64,000 bases of DNA from Catenaria anguillulae PL171 (Eukaryota; Blastocladiomycota; Blastocladiomycetes; Blastocladiales; Catenariaceae). How positions within the stretch are numbered: position 1 is the stretch's first letter; each line of letters starts with the position of its first letter. The stretch is from positions 62,001 to 126,000 of the forward strand of contig MCFL01000004.1 in NCBI GenBank assembly GCA_002102555.1. The letters are read 5' to 3'. The translations under genes were made by a program, and so were the position numbers. Below, one piece after another: positions 26,200-54,680 of this stretch. The notes below the pieces were generated by a model, which was not told where the DNA came from, searched no databases, and saw nothing but the letters and a program-made list of their open reading frames with translations.

Positions 26200-27565
26200 C
26201 ACTTTTCGCGTCAAGGTGCTCATGGGGCGGCTCCCAACGCTTGCCCAATTGCACATGTACTGGCCAGATCGCGCCCTGTCACCGCTCTGCACGCTGTGTG
26301 GCTCTTTGGATGACCAGCAGCATTGGGTGGTGTGTCCAAGGCTGGCTGACGAGTGGTGGGAGCTTGGCGTGGCGGCCCACGAATGCGTTGAGCAACTTTT
26401 GCCAGGCGCTGACACGACTCTCGCCGTCCAGGCAAGAAGTGTGCTTGCCCACTTGTTGCACCCAAGTCGCCTGCGCGCGACAGCAGTGTGCGTAGTAGAC
26501 TTGACACTACGCAGGAGGTTCCCCGGACTTGCACCCCAGCTCCCGCGGATTGTGGCAAGTGTTTCGTTGCTCATATGGTGCACGGTGTGGAAGCTGCGGT
26601 GTGAGAAGGTTGGCTCGATTGCTCCACCAGGCCAAGACAACCGAGGCGCGACCAATTGCCTCTGCCAAGTATGCACGACCAAAGGTCAACAACGACATCA
26701 AGTAGCGGCGTCCATGTCTGCAGCTGAAATTGCATGCCACTTCACGCACGAGTTGGCTGTTGGTGCTCCACCCCTCCTTGGTGCTGCCCAAGACGACATC
26801 AGGCCGCTTCCGTGGGCATTCTGGCATCACCTTGGTGCCATGCCAGGCCTGGCACAACCGCTATTCGGACTCCAGCCATCAACAAAACGTTTCGTAAACT
26901 GGGTTGTGGTGCGCAGCTTGTCTGGGCCCCACACGACTTTTGTTCCTGTCCTCTCCCTGCCACAAACCTAGCCCCCGACAGTCACCCTGCCCGCCTCACT
27001 CCCTCTTCTGAACTTCCGTTGGAAAAATGAAAACCACCGCAAAAAAAAAAAAAAAGATCAGATGTCTCACATGGACTGTTTGTTTCCCACGCTCCCCTGC
27101 ATCGATTGCCATACGCCCGTGCCTCGACCCCCCCCCCCAACCTGCACTCTTGATGCTGCCTTTGCCCTCACCTTGATTTCTTGCCCTTATCACCATTGGC
27201 TTACATATTCTTCCTTCCCCCTCCCCCCTCCCCCCCCGCCCCACTGTTGCCAACCACTCCTTCCATTGTGTTGTGTGCCTGTTGCTGCCTCTGGCAGGTG
27301 TATTCTGAGTGTCTGTTTGAATTATCCACCCTTTCCCTTCCTCTTTGGGTGTTCAGAGCTGATACGATTTTATAAATACATGCAACGTGGTTAACAAAAA
27401 AAAAGGACATGCTAAAGAAGAAGAACTTCGAACGTTAATGTATTCCATATGCAACAGCTACGTACAAAAAACGAACATTGACCCAGCACCATGTTCCCAA
27501 TTGTATTTCCAGAGTCCATGCCAACCCAAGCATCAAGTCTGGCAAGCACGCTGTGTCAAGTAGTT

Positions 27566-28959
27566 TTTTTTTTTTTTTTTTTTTTTGAATCACTACTACA
27601 TGTATTGAGGGCTGCAACCAACTTTGATGCTTAAAGGGGATGAAAGCAAGAAGGAGGAGACCAAAACACAACCACCACAAAATGGGTGACACAAGCAAGC
27701 AGGGGGAAGGGCAGGAAAGTGGTAGTAGGGGCCGCAAGCAGCCATGGGGAGGGGCGGGGAAGGAGGGTGAGGGGCAAAAGGGGAGGAACAACAAAACCAC
27801 TCAGCCAAGGGCATCAAGGCCCTGACTCCTGCAGCGACTTATCAATGAGCTTCAAACCTTTGAACGCTAAGGTCAGCCAAGTAAGCTTCTTCTCAGCATC
27901 CTCAAAACGCTCCTCCAAGCTCACGAGCGTTCTCTGCAGGTCATCCAGGGCACCATCAGTTGCCTTGAGATCACAGGTCAGGTCAGTGTAGCGACGATGG
28001 ACAGTATCCCGCACCACCGCAGTCACATCAACCAGATCCTGCCTCAACTTGTCCTGTTCCAACCTGAGGGCTGCAAACAGCACATCTTGTTGGGCACAGA
28101 ACTTGCTGAGTTGATCCTGCATGGCCAATATGGTGTTGGACAGACCTGCCACCTTGGCACGCAAATCCTTGTCCACCTTGTCGATAGCCTGCTTGGCCGC
28201 ATCAGCATAGCTGACACCACCAGCACTTGTTGGAGGGACGAGGGCAGGCAATGGACCTGGGAGAGAGACCTTGGTAGAAACAGGCTTGGACGGGCAAGCC
28301 AACTTGTAGTGGCCCGGCTCGCCACACAGGTAGCAAAGTCGAGCAGAACCAGCGGCAAAACACAAATCATGACCATTGACCAATAACTTGCCAAGCGAAA
28401 TGGCAGCCGACGCATCTTCTTGGTTCTCATAGTGCCAGAGCACACGAGAGAAGGAACGGACCTGGGAGTTGTCAACCATGAGGGCCTGGCCCTTGGCGAG
28501 CAGCTCGCCCAAACAACGCACAGCCTTGAAGGGGCAAAGTACTTGTACGTTCTTGTTGACAGCACTGCGCTTGTCTAGCCAACCTTGCAAATTGTCAAGG
28601 ACGTGCAAGAATTGGCCACAGAAATACATTGGTGACTTGCTGGTGGCCGAGGCCAGATCTTCGTGGCATGTGAATGCAACTTTGCAGAAACAAAATCCGG
28701 ACAGCGAGCGCTCATTGACAATGCGAGAAACCTTGTAGGTGCGTTGTAGGTAGGACAGAGCAGGTTCTTGGTGGACAGAATGGGGCATGGGCCCCACCCA
28801 AGCTGTGATTGGCAATGCCGTGGCATTGACAACCATAGCATCGGACATGGCAGGCAGCGGGGCGGCAACTGATGTTGGCTTGTTTTGGGATGCTGAGCTG
28901 ATCGCTGAAAGTTTTATATGCTTTTATTCATGGGATGTGTTGGGTTGCTGCATCCGATC
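27566..28959 (-). mobile_element. ORF1-only retroelement 1 (no RT)
   Basis: A complete 1,394-base insertion bounded by a perfect 17-base duplication CGCTGTGTCAAGTAGTT (27549-27565 and 28960-28976). In its own sense it has a 111-base 5' leader, one intact ORF, a ~230-base 3' UTR and a ~22-base poly-A. There is no reverse transcriptase, APE or RNase H. The 3' end (CTCAATACATGTAGTAGTGATTC then A's) resembles the LINE-A 3' end, and the leader is related to that of ORF1-only element 2. See the paired finding. Confidence 0.9.
27814..28848 (-). CDS. ORF1 (gag-like) protein with CCHC zinc knuckle
   Basis: Intact 344-residue ORF of ORF1-only element 1. It is probably an RNA-binding protein that coats retroelement RNA. 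The N-terminal half (residues ~10 to 185) looks like a divergent RRM-type fold (QVLCPFKAVRCLGELLAKGQ, FSRVLWHYENQEDASAAI). A CX2CX4HX4C zinc knuckle follows at about 190-205 (LCYLCGEPGHYKLACPSKP). The rest is a predicted coiled coil (KQAIDKVDKDLRAKVAGLSN, LVSLEERFEDAEKKLTWLTL), suited to forming trimers or higher oligomers. The layout RRM-like, zinc knuckle, coiled coil fits ORF1 proteins of non-LTR retrotransposons. It is clearly homologous to the 408-residue protein at 47851-49077 but well diverged from it. Confidence 0.85.
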   Translation of the reverse strand: MSDAMVVNATALPITAWVGPMPHSVHQEPALSYLQRTYKVSRIVNERSLSGFCFCKVAFTCHEDLASATSKSPMYFCGQFLHVLDNLQGWLDKRSAVNKNVQVLCPFKAVRCLGELLAKGQALMVDNSQVRSFSRVLWHYENQEDASAAISLGKLLVNGHDLCFAAGSARLCYLCGEPGHYKLACPSKPVSTKVSLPGPLPALVPPTSAGGVSYADAAKQAIDKVDKDLRAKVAGLSNTILAMQDQLSKFCAQQDVLFAALRLEQDKLRQDLVDVTAVVRDTVHRRYTDLTCDLKATDGALDDLQRTLVSLEERFEDAEKKLTWLTLAFKGLKLIDKSLQESGP

Positions 28960-34499: not shown

Positions 34500-36888
34500 T
34501 AGGATCACTACCACATGTATTGAAGCTGAAAAACCAACACAGAAGTCTTGAAAGAAGGTACAAGAGCAGGAAGGTCACAGATTCAAGACACTCAACGGAT
34601 GACAAAAGCAAGCAGAGAAAATGGCAAGCGGCACAGCAGTAGCTCCGACACTTGGTCATGTACATCCAGCCGGCACGTCCAGAGAAAGTTGGTGAGCGCT
34701 GGGCATCGGAACCAGTGCTGCTGATTGTCGAAGGCACCACAAAGTACACAGTTCGGGGATGGCACCTGGCTCGGCCAATATTGTGGAACTGGGCGCGAGT
34801 CGGCAGACGCCCCGTCAAAACCTTGACGCGGAATGTGACTGAGGAGTCGTCAGCATGTGCAATCTTGATCATCCACTCTTGGTTAAGGGTCGCACAAACT
34901 CAGGCTGCGGGCCGCCTTGTCGGACAGCTTGGTTTGTGTGGTTACCACAATACCTGCGTGTTGTCGTTGCGCGTAGTTGAGGGTCTCGACAAGGCGGTTG
35001 TGCGCTTGGGAGCCACGGATGTTGGCGACTAGGATGTTGACAGGGAACTCGGCGTGTGTTGCATGGGAGTCAATATCTGTGTTGTTGCCGCTCAGTCGGA
35101 GTCTTACAGTCTGTGGTTGCCGCCAATGCGGCTTACGTCTATTAGTAAGGTTGTTCTGTGGTGAGATTGAAGCAGTACCAAAAGCTGTTGTCCGATGCGG
35201 TATATCCAAAAAGTCGACAGGTTGGTTGGGTGGAACCATCATTGGGCTGGGGAATGTCAGCCGTTTGGTTTCAGACCCCCTTGTCTCTCCACCAGCGCCA
35301 CCTTCTCCGTGCAGGCGATTTTGCGAAGTTTCACCCGAGCGGCTCGTGGCAGCTCCCGCTGCACCACCCAATGGGAGAGTTGACCGTCCAGTTGCCGGGA
35401 CCGGCGTTGCGTCGCGTGACCGCGATTGTCTGCCTGGTTGTTGTGTTCACCCGCCAAGGAAAAAGCGAGGGGACTGGTCAATGGTGGACGCCATGACTTG
35501 TTGATTGCCAAAGATGGCCTTGTAGAAGTGAGATCCGTTGACAAGCTCTCACCGGCAATGGCAGTCAACTTGTACTTGCGCTTGAGGAGCCTCCGAGATG
35601 CGCTCTGGGAATGCGGCGTCGCCGTCCACGATCAGGTCGAGCTATTGCTTCGCAGGCATGGCCTGACTGCCCATGCCCAGTTGGCACGTACCCTTGTTGA
35701 CTCGTTGTTGACGGGGCAATCCCTCCGTGCCACGGCAGCGTGCATTGTCGACCTTTCCGTCCGCCTACAGTTCCCTCAGCTGGCACCGCTTCTGCCGCAT
35801 ATCGTCATGTGCGCATCAGCCACCATATGGCAAGTGGTTTGGAAACAGCACTTTGCACTCGTTGGGCCAATCAGCGAGGAGGATCCAGATGCCACCCAGT
35901 GTCTCTGCGACATTTGCCGGCCAGCACAATCGGCAGCTCGGCAGCCTGTTGGGTTGGGTAATGATGCGACCCTGGTCGCCACACACTACCTCCACGAGTG
36001 CCATGCAGGTCTCCCCCCCCCCCCCCCCCTTCTTGGCAAGCGGTCGATGGCTCTGCACCCAGTCCCCCTTGGCGTTTGGCAGGCACATTCGGCGCTCCCT
36101 GGTTTGGCAACCCCACGGTTGGCTTTGCGCAGTCTCGGCGACAGTTTGCATTGCGTGTTGGTATGTCGTCTGGTACCCATATTGTTTATTCTCCCATCCT
36201 CTCTGTGATCAGCATTTCTCGTTGATGTCACAATGACTGCATAGTTCAGCAACAAAAGCCAAAAAAAGAGGGTAGTTCTCGTTGTGTACGGATTGGTGTG
36301 GTGTCGGTCCTGCCTGGTTTTGCTCTCCCTTGTTCCCGCCCATCACCCATGCGACATTGTGTTCCCGCCCTCCCACTTCCTTGTACAATTGCTCTTTCCC
36401 TTTCACTTGTTGTGTTTTGTATTTGTCTTGTATTTGCTCTGGTCATTGTTTTGTTTTGTTTCATCACCTCTGCTTCCTCCCCCCCCCCCCTATTTCATCT
36501 CCCCCGCCGGTCATTCTTGACCCCTACTGCCACTCGCTTGCTTCTCTTGCTTGCCTGTGCCTCTTTTCATGGGTGCTTAAGACCCCAGCCTAGTTGCTCT
36601 TGTATTTTTGTCCCCGAGCCTCCTTTGTTGGTTTCTTGTCTTAATGCATGCAGTAGCGATTGGAAAAAAAAAAGTACTTGCGCTTGAGGTGCTCAAGGGC
36701 GGCATCTTGATTGACAGAGTGGGGTATGGGCCTACCCAAGCCATCAACGGCGACGCCGGGGCATCAACATCAATGGCATTGGACATTGTGATCGTATTGT
36801 GTACCTGGATAGGGGTTGCGGGGGGCTTGCTGAGTTGATTGCTTAAAGTTAAATGTCTTGGCTATGAATAGAGTTCCGTCAAGTCCTC
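34500..36888 (-). mobile_element. LINE-A deletion derivative (ORF1 start, APE start, C-terminal piece, 3' tail)
   Basis: On the minus strand, a 5' leader and ORF1 start (ATG at 36786, MSNAIDVDAPASPLMAWVG) are interrupted by LINE-C and resume at 35587. ORF1 breaks off near 35,455 and is followed by the start of ORF2, an APE-type endonuclease N-terminus (VNILVANIRGSQAHNRLVET, GIVVTTQTKLSDK). This in turn is joined near 34,875 to the C-terminal Cys/His region and the 3' UTR, ending in the LINE-A tail at about 34,503. Large internal deletions removed most of ORF1, APE, RT and RNase H. It links the CCHC-type ORF1 and LINE-A ORF2 to one element type. Confidence 0.7.
35588..36673 (+). mobile_element. 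LINE-C fragment: C-terminal domain and 3' end, nested in LINE-A ORF1
   Basis: A 1,086-base 5'-truncated insertion with a 16-base duplication GTACTTGCGCTTGAGG (35572-35587 and 36674-36689). It encodes a C-terminal ORF2 domain related to but distinct from LINE-A and LINE-B (LRDALWECGVAVHDQVELLL, LRATAACIVDLSVRLQFPQL, LCDICRPAQS, ATHYLHECHAG). Then comes a pyrimidine-rich 3' UTR ending GCAGTAGCGATTGG plus poly-A. A run of about 17 C at 36010-36026 within the coding part probably marks slippage. Confidence 0.88.
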
Positions 36889-44674: not shown

Positions 44675-44847
44675 CCCATGGCCAAGTGCCCCTACCACCA
44701 ACTGCTTGCCATTTTCTCTGCTTGCTTTTGTCGTTTATTGAGTGTTTTGGATCTGTGACCTTCCGGCTCTTGTGCCTTATTTCAGGGCTATTGTGTTGGT
44801 TTTTCAGCTTCAATACATGTGGTAGTGATTTAAAAAAAAAAAAAAAC
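44675..44847 (+). mobile_element. LINE-A tail-only insertion (TSD-bounded)
   Basis: About 173 bases of LINE-A 3' UTR ending AATACATGTGGTAGTGATTT plus poly-A. It is flanked by a 16-base duplication CAGATTTCGCATCGCC (44659-44674 and 44848-44863). It is inserted into a gag-like fragment on the minus strand. Extreme 5' truncation of a LINE-A copy is the simplest reading. Confidence 0.88.
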
Positions 44848-44863
44848 CAGATTTCGCATCGCC

Positions 44864-45327
44864 AACCAAGACGGCGATGCAGCTGGCATGTACACCAGCG
44901 GGTTGTTGGTTGCTTCTTTGTCGGCACCCTTGTTGGGCGGCACAGTGAATGGGTCGCGGGCTTTGCCTTTGGCGGCGAGCTGCTCAAGGATCGGAGCAAG
45001 CTTGTCGAGGTACTTCTGGTAGCGCGAGACGCCTCGCTCCAAGGGTTTGATGCGGGCATCCACATCGATCGTGGGGTCCGCCTTGTAGTCGCGCTCAAGT
45101 TGGTCTTGCTGCTCCTCTAGTTGCTGTTGCTGCCTGGCATAGTATTGCTTGGCCCGCCGCAGGACCGTTGGGTTGGGCGTCACCAGTTCGGTGTTGGTGA
45201 GCTTAATGGCTTGGTGCTCGAAGAAGCGCTTGCTGGCAGCGTCGCCTGCCAATTGAAGCCATTCGAGGATGGCGTGGGGCTCAAGGGCACTGATATTGTT
45301 GATTTGCTGATCCGTCAGGTCGGCCAT
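44864..45327 (-). pseudogene. Gag-like protein fragment of the unclassified retroelement
   Basis: Starts at the element's own ATG (45327): MADLTDQQINNISALEPHAI. It then follows the intact copy at 49423 (GDAASKRFFEHQAIKLTNTE, KQYYARQQQQLEEQQDQLER, IKPLERGVSRYQKYLDKLAP) to about residue 150. There it diverges and is interrupted by the LINE-A tail insertion. Only about 30 bases of the 5' leader precede the ATG, after which LINE-A coding sequence on the other strand begins. A broken copy. Confidence 0.8.
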
Positions 45328-46173
45328 TGTTGTTTGAAAGTGCAACGTTGAGCGAGACAATGCCGACGACGCATCAGTCACGTTCCGCGTCAAGGTTTTG
45401 ACGAGTTGTCTGCCAATTCGCGCTCAACTCAACAAGTATTGGCCAGAGCGGGTGCCGTCCCCAAATTGTGTGCTCTGCTGTGTTCTCTACAATCAACAGC
45501 ATTGGCTCAGGTGTCGCACACTTGCCAACATACTCTGGACGTGCCGATTGGATGTGCACGAATAAGTTGTGGAGCTGCTACGGCGTTGCAGGATGACGGC
45601 ACACCAAGCGGCAGCAAAGACACTCGTTGAGCAGTTAATGGATCCAGCAAAATTACAGGCAACTGCAGCATGCGTAGTCGAAGTGCGCCTACAACAACAA
45701 TTTCCCAACCTCGTATCTATCCTCGCGCGAATTGTCTCAATTGCTTCCACAACCATCCAAGCTGTGCTGTGGAAGGAGCGTTGCAGGCTCATAGGACCGA
45801 TTGAGTGACACATGCCAGAAGACCCGCTTGCGGCCCGGCAGCCCTGTCAATGTCCCCACTGTCGGGAGGCATGCGCCCCAGTGGCCCAGGAGCCGCCCAT
45901 GCACCTTGCGCTCGTTGCTGCACATTACATCCACAAGTGCCACGCTGGCTGCCCACCCCTTGTTGGCTCCTTATCAGCCATGCATGCACCGGTTTCCTTT
46001 GGCGAATGGTGGTTCGACGGCACCTTCCCAGGGCTCTCAACCCCCAGATTTGGGTTTGGACACTCACAGCAACGCTTTGCTACCCATGTCGGGGTACAGT
46101 CAGGTACACATTCTGTTTTTGTCCCCTTGCTTTCTCCAACTGCTGCCTCTGCGCATATGATGTAACCTTCCCT

Positions 46174-47111: not shown

Positions 47112-47407
47112 GTGCATGTGATGAGTTATTGAGTTGTTGTGTGTTTGTGTTGTGATCCATGACCCAGCAGTTGGGCACCAACCCATGGTTAGCTCTTCAG
47201 ATAATTCTGGGTTGTTTAGTATATACTTTTTTTTTTTGCTACACTACTGCATGTATTGTGGGCTACAACCAACTCACAAACTTCAAAAAAAGGAGGAAGC
47301 AAGAAGGAAGAGACCAGAACACAACTGCTACAAAATGAGCATCACAAGCAAGCAAGAGGGGAGGGCAGGCAAGTGGCAGTAGGGGCCGCAAGCGACCGTG
47401 GGGATGA

Positions 47408-47780
47408 TTTTTTTTTTTTAAATTTACCTCAGGACAATTGTACATATGGTGACAATCCATGAACAAATACAACACAAACTTGAAGCTTGGAGGACTTGGA
47501 CTTGGGTCTTGTACTTGACACAGGCGGGAACACAGAGGGACACACAGTGCTTGCCGAGAGGGGGCTCTGATTGAAGTTGAGCAGGCGGGATCCACCCCGG
47601 ACGGCTTGGACCTGAAGCAACTTGAATTTTAACTTGTGCTTGGCAACCAAACCAAATCCACGCACAAGCGAGTGGCAAGGACTATAGAAACACTATACCA
47701 GAATTGCCGCCTGTGGGGTTTGAACCCACGACCTCCACAGTGGACGCCCGGCGCCTTAACCACTGGGCCACGACAGCCCT
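47408..47780 (-). mobile_element. SINE-2, full-length tRNA-derived copy
   Basis: A 373-base insertion in the 3' UTR of ORF1-only element 2, flanked by a 16-base duplication GCGACCGTGGGGATGA (47392-47407 and 47781-47796). On the minus strand it begins with a tRNA-like head: A-box-like TGGCCCAGTGG, then GGTTCAAACCC as B box, with the spacing expected of an RNA polymerase III promoter. A ~290-base unrelated body follows and ends GTAAATTT plus poly-A. It is the youngest layer at this site. Confidence 0.9.
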
Positions 47781-47850
47781 GCGACCGTGGGGATGAGGAT
47801 GAGGTGGGGAAGGAAAGTGAGGAGTAGGCGGGGAGGAGAAAGCAAAACAA

Positions 47851-49077
47851 CTACGACTTGTTGGGGAAGGGGCCGGGGTACGCAATGGAACCCTGCGCCT
47901 TTGCCTGGTGGGCCCAACTCTTCTCCCGCGCAGCCGCCAAGTGTTCCTCAAAGTCGTCGTACAAGCGAAGCTCGTCCAAAGCGACCTTGAGATCCACCTC
48001 GACGATGGCGAGGTCACGGTTGACCCGCATGTACCGCTCAGAGGTCTTGGCCCGGTGGGCCGTCAGCTCGGCCACATCCTCCATTGTTGTCTCCAACGCT
48101 GGCTTGATGGCCTCAGACTTGAGCTCAAACTTTTTCGTGAGAGTCTCAAAGCCCGCCAAGAGCCCCTCCACCGAACCAGCAAGGGACCCCAAACGTTCCT
48201 CAATCCCCTTAACCTCCTCTTTGGTTGCCGACAACCTCTTCTCGAGACCATTGACCCGGGCAACAACCTGCTTGGACATGTCCGACTTGAACGCCATTAG
48301 CAGGGCCTCTTGGTCGGCCATGAACTTGGCCATTTGTCCGTGCATGGCCATGATCTTGTCGGCCAAGTCATCAATCTTGCCACGCAAATCCTTGTCAAGG
48401 GTGTCGACCTTGTCGACAGCTTGCTTGGCGACATCAGCATAGCTGAAGCCACCACGTGTTGGCGCCGAGGCGCAAGAGCGAGACGAGGGAGGCAAGACCT
48501 TGGCAATGGCGGGCCGCGATGGGCAGGCCAGCTTGACATGGCCGCGCTCGCCACAGGAGTAGCAGAGCTTGGCCGAACCGGGGAAGAAACACAACTCATG
48601 CCCGTTGGACGCAAGCTCGCCCAGGGCAACAGCATCCATGGCATCTTGTTTGGTCTCATAGCGCCAAACGACACGCGAGAACGACCGAGCACGACTGTTG
48701 TCAACCAAGAGCGCTTGACCCTTGGCAACCAGGGAACCAAGTTGGCGCACGGCACTGTAGCCGCACAAGACTTGTACGAGCATGTCCTCGTCGGTGAGCT
48801 TGCTGGCCCAGTCTTGCACATCACCAACAACATGCAGGAACTGGCCGCGGAAAAAGCAAGGGGACTGGTCAATGGCAGACGCCATGTCTAGTTGATTGCC
48901 AAAGATGGCCTTGTAGAAGCGAGATCTGTTGACAAGCTGCTCACCGGCAATGGCGGTCGACTTGTACTTGCGCTTGAGGTGCTCAAGGGCGGCATCTTGA
49001 TCGACAGAGTGGGGGATGGGCCCTACCCAAGCCATGAACGGCGACGCCGGGGCATCAACATCCATGGCGTTGGACAT
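47851..49077 (-). CDS. ORF1 (gag-like) protein with CCHC zinc knuckle, intact
   Basis: 408 residues starting MSNAMDVDAPASPFMAWVGP. The N-terminal domain (residues ~30-195) resembles a divergent RRM: FYKAIFGNQLDMASAIDQSP, VQVLCGYSAVRQLGSLVAKG, and SRVVWRYETKQDAMDAVALG as its last strand and helix. The zinc knuckle LCYSCGERGHVKLACPSRP (CX2CX4HX4C) is at about 198-216. After a Pro/Ser linker there is a long coiled coil (~245-385), with KQAVDKVDTLDKDLRGKIDD and LEKRLSATKEEVKGIEERLG, and a short tail. There are no stops or frameshifts despite the insertion history around it. It should bind the element's RNA and oligomerise. A truncated relative with the same N-terminus is at 36,786. Confidence 0.88.
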   Translation of the reverse strand: MSNAMDVDAPASPFMAWVGPIPHSVDQDAALEHLKRKYKSTAIAGEQLVNRSRFYKAIFGNQLDMASAIDQSPCFFRGQFLHVVGDVQDWASKLTDEDMLVQVLCGYSAVRQLGSLVAKGQALLVDNSRARSFSRVVWRYETKQDAMDAVALGELASNGHELCFFPGSAKLCYSCGERGHVKLACPSRPAIAKVLPPSSRSCASAPTRGGFSYADVAKQAVDKVDTLDKDLRGKIDDLADKIMAMHGQMAKFMADQEALLMAFKSDMSKQVVARVNGLEKRLSATKEEVKGIEERLGSLAGSVEGLLAGFETLTKKFELKSEAIKPALETTMEDVAELTAHRAKTSERYMRVNRDLAIVEVDLKVALDELRLYDDFEEHLAAAREKSWAHQAKAQGSIAYPGPFPNKS

Positions 49078-49422
49078 GGCGATTGTATTGTGGACACGGA
49101 TAGGGGTTGTGGGGGGCTTGCTGAGTTGATTGCTTAAAGTTAAATGTCTTGGCTATGCATAGAGTTCCCTTAGTCGCGGCCTGATTAGCGCTTGTTTAGT
49201 ATATACTACCCGTGCTTGATGACCTTCTAGTCTTACCTATGTAAGCACGCCAACATTTTTTTCATCAAGTTCTGCCAACAGAATATCCCAGCACACAACA
49301 ACCTGGCCGTCGTCACTTAGCCCCATCCATTGTCGCTTAGCTCCACTCATTGCTGACTCATTCCATCGGCCACAAATCCAACCACACTTTCGTCTCGCTC
49401 GACGCTGCACTTTCAAACAGCA

Positions 49423-50353
49423 ATGGCCGACCTGACGGATCAGCAAATCGACGCTATCAGTGCCCTTGAGCCCCACGCCATCCTTGAATGGCTGCAATCG
49501 GCGGGCGATGCTGCCAGCGAGCGCTTCTTCGAGCGCCAAGCCATTAAGCTCACCAACACCGAACTGGTGACGCCCAACTCAACGGTCCTGCTGCGGGCCA
49601 AGCAATACTATGCCAGACAGCAACAGCAACTAGAGGAGCAGCAAGACCAACTTGAGCGCGACTACGAAGCGGACCCCACAATCGATGTGGATGCCCGCAT
49701 CAAACCCTTGGAGCGAGGAGTCTCACGCTACCAGAAGTACCTCAACAAGCTTGCTCCGATCCTTGAGCAGCTCGCCGCCAAAGGCAAAACCCGCGACCCA
49801 TTTGCTGCGCCGCCTAACAAGGATGCCGACAAAGAGGCAACCAACAACCCGCTGGTGTATATTCCAGCTGGTCAATCGATTCCCTCAGCGCTCGCCCGCA
49901 TGACCTTTGAGCGAGCCGAGACGGTCACTGAGTTGGTGGCACAATTGCGTTTGCGGGCGGGTAACCACCAAGACATGATGGTGGCCAATCTCAAGCGCAG
50001 CATTCGGTACTTCTCCGAGCGCGCCCACGCCGACATTTCACGTTTTCCGAACGATTTGGATGAGGGCGAGCTGTTCCGCCGCCTGTTGGACACTCTCGAC
50101 TGGCCCAAGCGCCATGCGCAACGGATGGCGATCCAGGATGTGTTGCCGGTGGAGGGCAAAACGGTCGCCGACTACATCATCGCTGTTTCACTGGCATTGC
50201 TCGTGTACTTGCCCCGAGGCACGCATCCTGAGGACACCCCTCTTTGGCACTCGCCCATTGTGAAGAATATCGTCATTGGCGTCATTGCCTCGATCTGGCA
50301 GACCGAGGTCAAGACTACGTGGTTTGAGGCGGCTGACAACACCTTGACGGACA
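49423..50353 (+). CDS. Gag-like protein, 3'-truncated by LINE-A insertion
   Basis: MADLTDQQIDAISALEPHAI begins ~310 residues of mostly helical sequence with a long charged coil (RQQQQLEEQQDQLERDYEAD). A globular part follows: MTFERAETVTELVAQLRLRA, RYFSERAHADISRFPNDLDE, LPVEGKTVADYIIAVSLALL, ending near WFEAADNTLTDIW. There the reading passes into LINE-A sequence (FGVC...). The style resembles gag capsid proteins of Ty3-like elements, but there is no zinc knuckle in the remaining part and I cannot assign a family. Two other copies (45327 and 54487) start the same way, so the start is secure. Confidence 0.6.
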
Positions 50354-51316
50354 TTTGGTGTGTGTGCTGCAGTCGATCTGCGAGACACGGTACACGGGCC
50401 TCTTGTCACGCTGCGCCATCTTGTGGAATGCACTTGCCTGATGCTTGACGAGGGTGTTGTGCCCCCCGACCACGCTCTACTCCATTTGTGCCTCGACTGC
50501 GGCGACACAGGTAACTGCCGACTGGCACCGACAACTCGTGACGTGCCTGACTGCCTTGTCACCGTTCCACTTGCTTGCACATATCCCATCTCAGCCAAGT
50601 CTCTCACGACGCGTCGGGACGGTGTAGACGCGTATGTAGTCCTAGCGCCTAACCACGAACTGCCTGAGCATTGCCCATACATGTCCAGCTTCTTCCCTGG
50701 GTATGTCCAGGATGATATGGATGTTGACAGTGACGATAGCGACGGTGATGACGACGGCCACCATTCAATCTCAGCCTACTCAGCTCCACCTCTCGCCAAT
50801 GTCACGCAACCGCTCACAACGCACCATGGCACAATCCTTGACTGTTGGACCGACGGCTCGCTGCAACCCGCTACAAATACGGCTGATGCCGTTATGGGAC
50901 TCGGTGCCCACTGCCCCCAGCTCAACCTGGAAATCTTCGGCCGACTGCCGCCTGCTCCGACCAGCTCATCACGCCCCGAGGTTGCTGCTGTTCTTGCGAT
51001 TGTTGACAAACTTCCTGTTGGGTCGCGTGCGCGTGTCTTTTCCGACTCAGCGGTTGCTGTGCAGATCATCCCAATGTTTCTGGGCTTGTCCGATACAGAA
51101 GCGGTTGCGCCACGTCACCCGTCGCCACTGCACAATTTGCTACTCGTCCTTCGCGCACTAGTTAAAGAAAGGGGTATTGTGCTAGAGCTCGTCAAGGTCA
51201 AGGGCCATGATGGGAACGCGGAGAATGAGAAGGCGGACGAGCTGGCTCGCTGTGGTGCAAATTGCCGCGAGGTGTGCGCCCTGTCACCACAGTTTCTGGA
51301 CAAGATTGACTTTGGT
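50354..51316 (+). mobile_element. LINE-A fragment: connector and RNase H
   Basis: A 5'-truncated LINE-A piece that enters at FGVCAAVDLRDTVHG. It keeps the Cys-rich connector (LHLCLDCGDTGNCRL) and a full RNase H with all four acidic motifs (LDCWTDGS, PEVAAVLAIVD, VFSDSAVAV, GHDGNAENEKADELA). It breaks off at FLDKIDFG, where a minus-strand LINE-A tail begins. The open frame spans the whole piece, so it is fairly young, but RT is missing. Confidence 0.85.
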
Positions 51317-54090: not shown

Positions 54091-54680
54091 TGTTGGGGTT
54101 GTGTAGGAGAGTGTATGTGTATGTCGTTCACGTGTGTGCATGTGATGAGTTATCGAGTTGTTGTGTGTTTGTGTTGTGATCCACGACCCAGCAGTTGGGC
54201 ACCAACCCATGGTTAGCTCTTCAGATAATTCTGGGTCGTTTAGTATATACTACCCGTGCTTGATGACCTTCTAGTCTTACCTATGCAAGCACGCCAACAT
54301 TTTTTTCATCAAGTTCTGCCAACAGAATATCCCAGCACACAACAACCTGGCCGTCGTCGCTTAGCCCCATCCATCGTCGCTTAGCCCCATCCATCGTCGC
54401 TTAGCTCCACTCATTGCCGACTCATTCCATCGGCCACAAATCCAACCATACTTTCGTCTCGCTCAACGTTGCACTTTCAAACAACAATGGCCGACCTGAC
54501 GGATCAGCAAATCGACAATATCGGTGCCCTTGAGCCCCACGCCATCCTCGAATGGCTTCAATCGGCGGGCGACGCTGCCAGCGAGCGCTTCTTCGAGCGC
54601 CAAGCCATCAAGCTCACCAACACCGAACTGGTGACGCCCAACTCAACGGTCCTGCTGCGGGCCAAGCAGTACTATGCCAG
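54091..54680 (+). mobile_element. Unclassified gag-like retroelement, copy 2 (leader and gag start)
   Basis: Starts TGTTGGGGTTGTGTAGGAG directly after LINE-A RT sequence. The ~395-base leader is uninterrupted and so shows the original sequence at the sites of the two insertions in copy 1. It carries an extra tandem unit CGTCGCTTAGCCCCATCCAT near 54,355-54,400. The gag ATG is at 54487; 64 codons remain before the copia LTR cuts it at 54681. Confidence 0.7.

Follow-up and report, generated by a model that had tools for sequence, protein, structure and literature searches.

The stretch of the Catenaria anguillulae PL171 genome (Blastocladiomycota; assembly of 41.07 Mb in 457 contigs) analysed in this study, a window of 64 kb, harbors on its minus strand a retroelement unit (47227–49191) bounded by an exact 15-nt target-site duplication (TTGTTTAGTATATAC, copies at 47212–47226 and 49192–49206). 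Along the minus strand, the unit consists of a 5' leader (49078–49191), one intact open reading frame (ORF) of 408 codons, termed ORF1 (47851–49077), a 3' untranslated region (UTR), and a terminal poly-A, which appears on the plus strand as a T run (47227–47237). The ORF list of the element revealed no ORF for a reverse transcriptase (RT). A search of the window for TTGTTTAGTATATAC with up to two mismatches resulted in four matches, compared to a mean of 0.01 after shuffling, and a third copy of the duplicated sequence was detected at 54236–54250 with one mismatch. Since the two flanks of the element, joined by script, aligned across the junction to 54136–54680 (92.8% over 545 columns), 54236–54250 is an unoccupied paralogous target site. 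An earlier sequence-only reading of this stretch had already proposed the duplication at both ends, the empty target copy at about 54,236–54,250, the single ORF, the poly-A, and the lack of an RT, all of which were confirmed. Based on the duplication, the unoccupied site, and a 5' region and tail common to sister copies, the unit was classified as a complete ORF1-only retroelement of subfamily A with tail type A1. A stretch of its leader (49078–49166) is conserved at 22 genome places, and its distal 3' tail with poly-A (47227–47391) was found at 28.

The same reading had regarded 47227–49191 as one unit. While this holds for the insertion as bounded by its target-site duplication, the 3' UTR contains a separate insertion outside the element proper, namely a 373-nt tRNA-derived short interspersed nuclear element (SINE) at 47408–47780 on the minus strand. 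This SINE displayed its own exact 16-nt duplication (GCGACCGTGGGGATGA, 47392–47407 and 47781–47796) and a tRNA-Gly head at 47705–47777 on the minus strand (ARAGORN; 35.8 bits for the Rfam tRNA family), which was the only tRNA-like match in the window with both tools. It had no counterpart in the sister element copies that were aligned, and its family occupies at least 44 genome places (40 of 63 candidates scored). On visual inspection, the 3' end of the SINE looked unlike the tails of the long interspersed nuclear elements (LINEs) of this analysis.

Domains, phylogeny, and selection of ORF1

Because the model of the whole protein was weak (predicted local distance difference test, pLDDT, of 62.7; no PDB matches at E ≤ 0.001), the first 200 residues of ORF1 were refolded as a core together with LINE ORF1 rows using AlphaFold2. 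The resulting model (pLDDT 87.5) displayed two full RRM patterns, at residues 14–84 (48826–49038) and 100–166 (48580–48780). Foldseek revealed 89 PDB matches of this core at E ≤ 0.001, and among the 50 listed, tandem-RRM proteins dominated, with RRM1-2 of PABP in first place. For the zinc knuckle at residues 172–185 (48523–48564), Pfam zf-CCHC scored 18.4 bits (E = 0.0023), which is under the curated cut-off of 20.8, and C172, C175, H180, and C185 were invariant in all 22 rows aligned. Residues 213–370 (47968–48441) formed a single long helix in the whole-protein model, a probable coiled coil. ORF1 is thus predicted to comprise two RRMs, a CCHC knuckle, and a coiled coil, in line with the RRM-like, CCHC, and coiled-coil parts named by the sequence-only reading. 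With predicted RRM folds followed by a CCHC knuckle, it belongs to the class of RRM-plus-CCHC ORF1 proteins (ORF1p), presumably the one named type I ORF1p.

Over the RRM-CCHC region, ORF1 shared about 30% identity with its counterparts in the RT-bearing LINEs of this genome. In most of these LINE ORF1s, the RRM is preceded by a long N-terminal part, and an alignment to the element's ORF1 was obtained only within residues 5–228. In a tree of the RRM-CCHC core calculated from chosen rows, with near-copies left out, the 12 ORF1-only rows and the 13 LINE rows were split by one branch with a support of 100/100 and a length of about 1.9 changes per site.

The ratio of nonsynonymous to synonymous substitution rates (dN/dS) among ORF1 copies, low values of which the sequence-only reading had named as support for an active lineage, was mostly well below 1. 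It ranged from 0.15 to 0.61 within subfamily A (15 pairs, the top value from a pair with nine changes only), from 0.13 to 0.97 within subfamily B (10 pairs), from 0.15 to 0.22 within subfamily C (three pairs), and from 0.24 to 0.37 between subfamilies (10 pairs), where the synonymous divergence (dS) was at least 0.6 in nine of the 10. Fisher tests on six non-overlapping pairs, based on one assumed synonymous-site fraction (0.23) and one choice of pairs, rejected equality in five cases (p from 5e-7 to 8e-4) and not in the sixth (L016–L018, p = 0.28). As judged from these substitution patterns, ORF1 is mostly under purifying selection. The youngest pairs revealed a dS of 0.0075 (L028–L029) and 0.011 (L002–L003), which speaks for recent copying of ORF1-only elements.

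Genomic copies, insertion marks, and 3' tails

Searching the genome with ORF1 resulted in at least 106 matches, which were merged by a script into 90 places according to their distance on one strand, 75 of them of the ORF1-only type (43–100% identity) and 15 of the LINE type (28–33%). Since 102 of 224 candidates were scored, these copy counts are lower bounds, and they depend on the merging rule. An endonuclease match was present within 3.5 kb downstream in 13 of the 15 LINE-type ORF1s, in nine of them about 1.1 kb away, and these 13 are ordinary two-ORF LINEs, as seen on reading for most of the fetched stretches. By coordinates, none of the 75 ORF1-only-type places was followed in line by an endonuclease ORF. 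An endonuclease match within 3.5 kb downstream was found at five of the 75, all of which reach their own tail and poly-A first, four of them with target-site duplications. Thus, L020 and L051 were flanked by duplications of 17 nt, and L052 and C400, each inserted within the ORF1 of a LINE, by duplications of 16 nt; for L024/L032, the duplication search was negative. When fragmentary endonuclease rows were included as well, only C436:16358, a place flagged before, acquired a further row. The proposal of the sequence-only reading that the unit is an ORF1-only retroelement and not a recently deleted LINE had been tied to the question of whether most copies continue into an apurinic endonuclease (APE)/RT ORF, and they do not, with four partial-RT fusions as the observation on the other side.

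RT matches within 4.5 kb downstream occurred at 10 of the 75 places, and six of these end in their own tail before the match. A listed ORF1-only tail comes first in four (C436, C196, C440, and C286), and two carry their own poly-A and duplication (C212, identical to L051, and C167, identical to L052). Three more are in-frame RT fusions, and a fourth one (C165:15209) was recognised when L022 was read. Since neither an endonuclease nor the beginning of the RT is present in any of the fusions, they were read as chimeras that arose by template switching or recombination. They form pairs of opposite orientation on each of two contigs (L022/L023 on C165, L025/L026 on C13) and resemble inverted duplications. 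Regarding the 3' ends of the whole set, one of the three known ORF1-only tails was located within 700 nt in 51 of the 75 places; many of the 24 places where no listed tail was found are partial.

Target-site duplications of about 13–20 nt were detected at 22 of 34 places examined (12 among the 30 loci of the ORF1 search, nine more later, and one at C400), 15 of which keep an intact ORF1; the duplication of L018 was weak, with a score of 13 compared to a shuffle maximum of 12. The family hence occurs as repeated copies at different sites with duplications and a 3' poly-A, as known for ORF1-only non-long-terminal-repeat (non-LTR) retroelements. In an alignment of 19 target sites (L018 was dropped from 20), 13 had an A preceding the nick, and no strong motif emerged. 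Several of the insertions are located within LINEs, for example L052 and L056 in a LINE ORF1 and L028 in a LINE tail.

The last 150–190 nt of most ORF1-only elements compared were homologous to tails behind ORF2 C-termini. This was most convincing for subfamily B, the 3' UTR of which revealed 80–84% identity to LINE-d tails across roughly 190 nt (E values as low as 6e-52), with the likeness beginning 20–40 nt past the ORF1 stop. B-like tails were found at 41 or more places (40 of 81 candidates scored), 12 of them behind an ORF1-only ORF, 12 behind an ORF2 C-terminus, and 17 behind neither. Tail type A1 of the window element shared about 72% with the tails of LINEs of the ORF2C_a group (L002: 96–99 of 137 columns), and the best ORF2-linked relatives of the A1 and A2 tails reached about 70–76%. 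Five of the six A1-tail places assigned to neither ORF (L046–L050) are 5'-truncated copies or solo tails without a merged ORF1 match, and at none of the five did an ORF2 run into the A1 tail.

Comparison of ORF1s and tails revealed different combinations of the two. In windows of 40 residues that begin at residues 1–241, the ORF1 of L052 was 88–98% like subfamily C, and the tail of this copy was of the LINE-c type (105/138), unlike that of the ORF2C_a group. L027 was 78–100% C-like in windows starting at residues 1–327, and its tail was of the LINE-d type (134/152). ORF1s of a single type, comprising subfamily C with L027 and L052 as close relatives, thus occur with three tail types, two of which stem from identified, different ORF2-bearing LINEs. 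In addition, A1-type tails were located behind ORF1s of both A and C, and at least three tails were found behind A-type ORF1s. At the nucleotide level, the identity between A and B was 65% in codons 1–330 and 90–94% in codons 331–408; for L024 and L028, the corresponding values were 62% and 88%. Judged by these alignments, the data show an exchange of the C-terminus and the 3' UTR between subfamilies, for which a change of template while co-packaged RNAs are reverse-transcribed would be the simplest account, with DNA recombination as an alternative. The likeness of the B and LINE-d tails, together with the different LINE tail of L052, suggests mobilisation in trans with switching of the helper.

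Proposed mode of propagation and alternative explanations

Based on these findings, 47227–49191 is probably (at roughly 0.73 by our estimate) a complete copy of a diversified, ORF1-encoding, RT-less retroelement family, the RNA of which is likely bound by ORF1p and likely copied in trans by ORF2 enzymes encoded by LINEs that share its 3' tails. The element would be transcribed from its leader, and the ORF1p made from this RNA would bind it. The ORF2 protein (ORF2p) of a LINE would then recognise the shared 3' tail and prime reverse transcription at a nick, and copying there would leave the poly-A and the duplication. ORF1 would be retained since its protein acts mostly in cis; binding of ORF1p to its own RNA, together with a requirement for it in cis, would explain the constraint on ORF1. 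Finally, a template switch near the 3' end would supply a new tail and with it a new helper. More tentatively, and at somewhat less than even odds, the family could be the counterpart of a satellite virus, that is, an old lineage with its own RNA-packaging protein and no polymerase, which passes from one helper to the next, each time acquiring the 3' tail of an unrelated LINE by template switching.

Were such a parasite able to rely on the ORF1p supplied by its helper, one would expect decay of its own ORF1, as seen with SINEs. Constraint on ORF1 across subfamilies that seemingly use different LINE enzymes would mean that the role of ORF1p is separable from that of ORF2. As one genome contains an ORF1 type followed by three tails, and also a tail that follows either an ORF1-only ORF or an ORF2, it would become directly testable whether the 3' tail determines the choice of helper and whether template switching alters this choice.

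Several observations weigh against a family that is copied in trans without an RT-bearing parent of its own. None of the 28 A1 tails and none of the 37 A2 tails was linked to an ORF2, with an ORF2 list comprising 147 of 283 candidates, from which two rows were omitted, neither near a tail. Four of the 75 ORF1 places (contigs C13 and C165; ORF1 identity of 76–77%) are the fusions mentioned above, in which ORF1 continues in frame into a central portion of an RT; they could be relics of an RT-bearing relative. A 5' fragment (C428:10948–11229, 94 residues) has an RT match 1.2 kb downstream. No duplication was found at 12 of the 34 places examined (L004, L010, L012, L013, L016, L021–L026, and L029), constraint was weak or lacking in some pairs (dN/dS up to 0.97 in B; L016–L018), and the core tree is midpoint-rooted. 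Protein searches for relatives in other species (two and 12 matches; 7997 candidates scored in the larger) resulted in C. anguillulae alone, with a word filter that easily misses distant relatives, and the age of the lineage is therefore estimated from divergence within one genome. A parent capable of autonomous movement may have died out or may be missing from the assembly.

The sequence-only reading had deduced a LINE-A helper from a LINE-A-like 3' end. The homology to ORF2-linked tails stood, while none of the 28 A1 tails was located behind an ORF2 C-terminus, and the convincing pairing was that of sister subfamily B with a different LINE, LINE-d. LINE-A was therefore not accepted as proven helper of 47227–49191, the A1 tail being only about 72% like that of the ORF2C_a group and a close ORF2-linked match being absent among the tails compared.

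According to another explanation, an autonomous LINE lineage with this ORF1 once existed, or sits in unassembled repeats, and was responsible for the copying, the present copies being its ORF1-only leftovers. The four fusions to a partial RT, the lack of a close ORF2-linked tail for A1 and A2, and an assembly fragmented into 457 contigs with counts that are lower bounds would agree with it; the fusions slightly lowered our confidence in copying in trans and raised that in a lost parent. However, pairs as young as L028–L029 and L002–L003 exist, yet an endonuclease ORF in line with ORF1 was found at none of the 75 places, and subfamily B has an extant ORF2-bearing tail partner, so that we consider this explanation unlikely. 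A derivative of one ordinary two-ORF LINE by internal deletion, of the HAL1 or TRE5-A.2 type (see below) and carried by its parent after loss of ORF2, would agree with the homology of ORF1 to the LINE ORF1s of the same genome (about 30% over RRM-CCHC) and with that of the tails. Against it stand the coordinate test (0/75), the fully supported split in the core tree with its long branch, the long N-terminal part of most LINE ORF1s, which are alignable only in the core, and the dS of at least 0.6 in nine of 10 between-subfamily pairs, and we hold it to be rather improbable. In particular, the coordinate test, the tree, and the five nested cases near an endonuclease disfavour a recent deletion; if a deletion founded the ORF1-only family, it happened long ago.

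Constraint on the ORF1 of an RT-less element, and the insertions inside LINEs, could also be expected if ORF1p were a decoy gag-like protein kept for interfering with LINE ribonucleoproteins, as restraint of LINEs has been proposed for the domesticated L1TD1 (PMC4161310). Dispersed copies with duplications and poly-A resemble a selfish amplifier, unlike a domesticated gene, and insertion into LINEs may just mirror a LINE-rich habitat; a restraining function thus appears quite improbable. Public databases list the ORF1-only proteins as hypothetical proteins of C. anguillulae, a practical side of the present analysis being that ORFs of these elements stand there as hypothetical host proteins. 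This listing would fit an origin as retrocopies from a host gene that encodes an RRM-CCHC protein; the conserved leader at 22 places, the several subfamilies, each of which was amplified, and the homology of the 3' UTRs to LINE tails make such an origin hardly credible.

Comparison with known systems and further features of the window

ORF1-only elements are already known, also from microbes. The suggestion of the sequence-only reading that a microbial example may be undescribed has to be withdrawn, since TRE5-A.2 of Dictyostelium discoideum is described as being without any ORF2 and moved in trans by the ORF2p of TRE5-A.1 (PMC5391098, PMC5633606). Both the Dictyostelium and the Catenaria elements are non-LTR elements of microbial eukaryotes with an ORF1 and no ORF2; trans-mobilisation by the ORF2p of a related LINE was shown for TRE5-A.2 and would be expected for Catenaria. 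According to these descriptions, TRE5-A.2 derives from TRE5-A.1, insertion of TRE5-A takes place next to tRNA genes, and its ORF1p is unlike other ORF1ps. In contrast, the Catenaria family comprises several subfamilies with 3' tails matching different LINEs, and our lower-bound searches revealed no complete element that combines an RT with this ORF1 and 3' end (0/75 places; 0/28 for A1), four partial-RT fusions notwithstanding.

HAL1, which the sequence-only reading had named as the closest precedent, remains a parallel, but TRE5-A.2 and HeT-A of Drosophila are parallels too. HeT-A is reported as an RT-less LINE-type element coding only for a gag-like protein, with the RT provided by other elements (PMC5537684, PMC11698117). 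The Catenaria element likewise carries a gag-like ORF without an RT; HeT-A, by the same reports, adds to chromosome ends and maintains telomeres, whereas the Catenaria copies are internal and located between duplications of about 13–20 nt. The mammalian HAL1 codes only for an ORF1p, likely uses the L1 machinery, and arose from L1 several times independently (PMC5753468, PMC4161310). Unlike this repeated derivation, the Catenaria family occupies one side of the ORF1 tree and revealed no complete RT-bearing member; it resides in a fungal genome, and its nearest RT-bearing ORF1s, with tandem RRM and CCHC, are those of LINEs of the same genome. In Blumeria, EKA/AVRk1 comprise many truncated LINE ORF1 copies in a genome with full LINEs (Kryze, Satine) and are proposed effectors (PMC4641428). 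Common features are the many ORF1-derived copies in a fungus and a CCHC-type domain; the description in PMC4641428 does not present EKA/AVRk1 as ORF1-only elements bounded by target-site duplications.

Regarding the domain layout, tandem RRM plus CCHC is not the arrangement known from the L1 ORF1p. SINEs possess a 3' tail homologous to a LINE tail, which is likely used by the LINE RT, but they code for no protein, whereas the Catenaria family keeps a constrained ORF1. In general, the family corresponds to ORF1-only non-LTR elements, with an intact ORF1 and no endonuclease or RT ORF between the ends, the four partial-RT fusions being exceptions. In an internally deleted LINE, most sister copies would continue into APE/RT, which was not the case among the places found here. 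What appears unusual, by sequence comparison, is an ORF1 deeply separate from those of the RT-bearing LINEs of the same genome, diversified, and combined with tails matching different LINEs. Literature searches turned up nothing on retrotransposons of C. anguillulae, and the accessible part of PMC5006619 contains nothing on ORF1-only forms.

Apart from 47227–49191, the window carries a second complete ORF1-only element (27564–28959, minus strand), with a 344-codon ORF1 at 27814–28848 and its own duplication. A third A-type fragment, identified by the leader search and by reading, comprises a leader and the start of ORF1 (about 36674–36875, minus strand) and is cut by an insertion of LINE-d. 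This LINE-d copy (35426–36663, plus strand) consists of an ORF2 C-terminus (35426–36208) and a 3' tail of the type that it has in common with subfamily B. The repeats flanking 47227–49191 harbor two copies of an ORF starting with MADLTDQQI (44830–45393 and 49423–50448), the second of which gave no Pfam family above the cut-off.

Minor observations were also made at the insertion sites. In the listed subfamily A copies (L001–L014), the conserved start CTCTATGCATAGCC is separated from the duplication by a short stretch of about 7–30 nt that differs between copies and often ends in AA. Such stretches could stem from template jumping, from transcription starting at variable positions, or from untemplated addition. 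L003, L004, and L008 all adjoin the same target sequence TCCGTTGGTGGGTTA, which points to either a duplicated segment or a repeated target. Furthermore, two 5'-truncated ORF1-only copies (L046, 342–547, and L047, 4682–4888) directly adjoin the same repeat as the target of the window element (54091–54299 of the window), a possible recurrent target.

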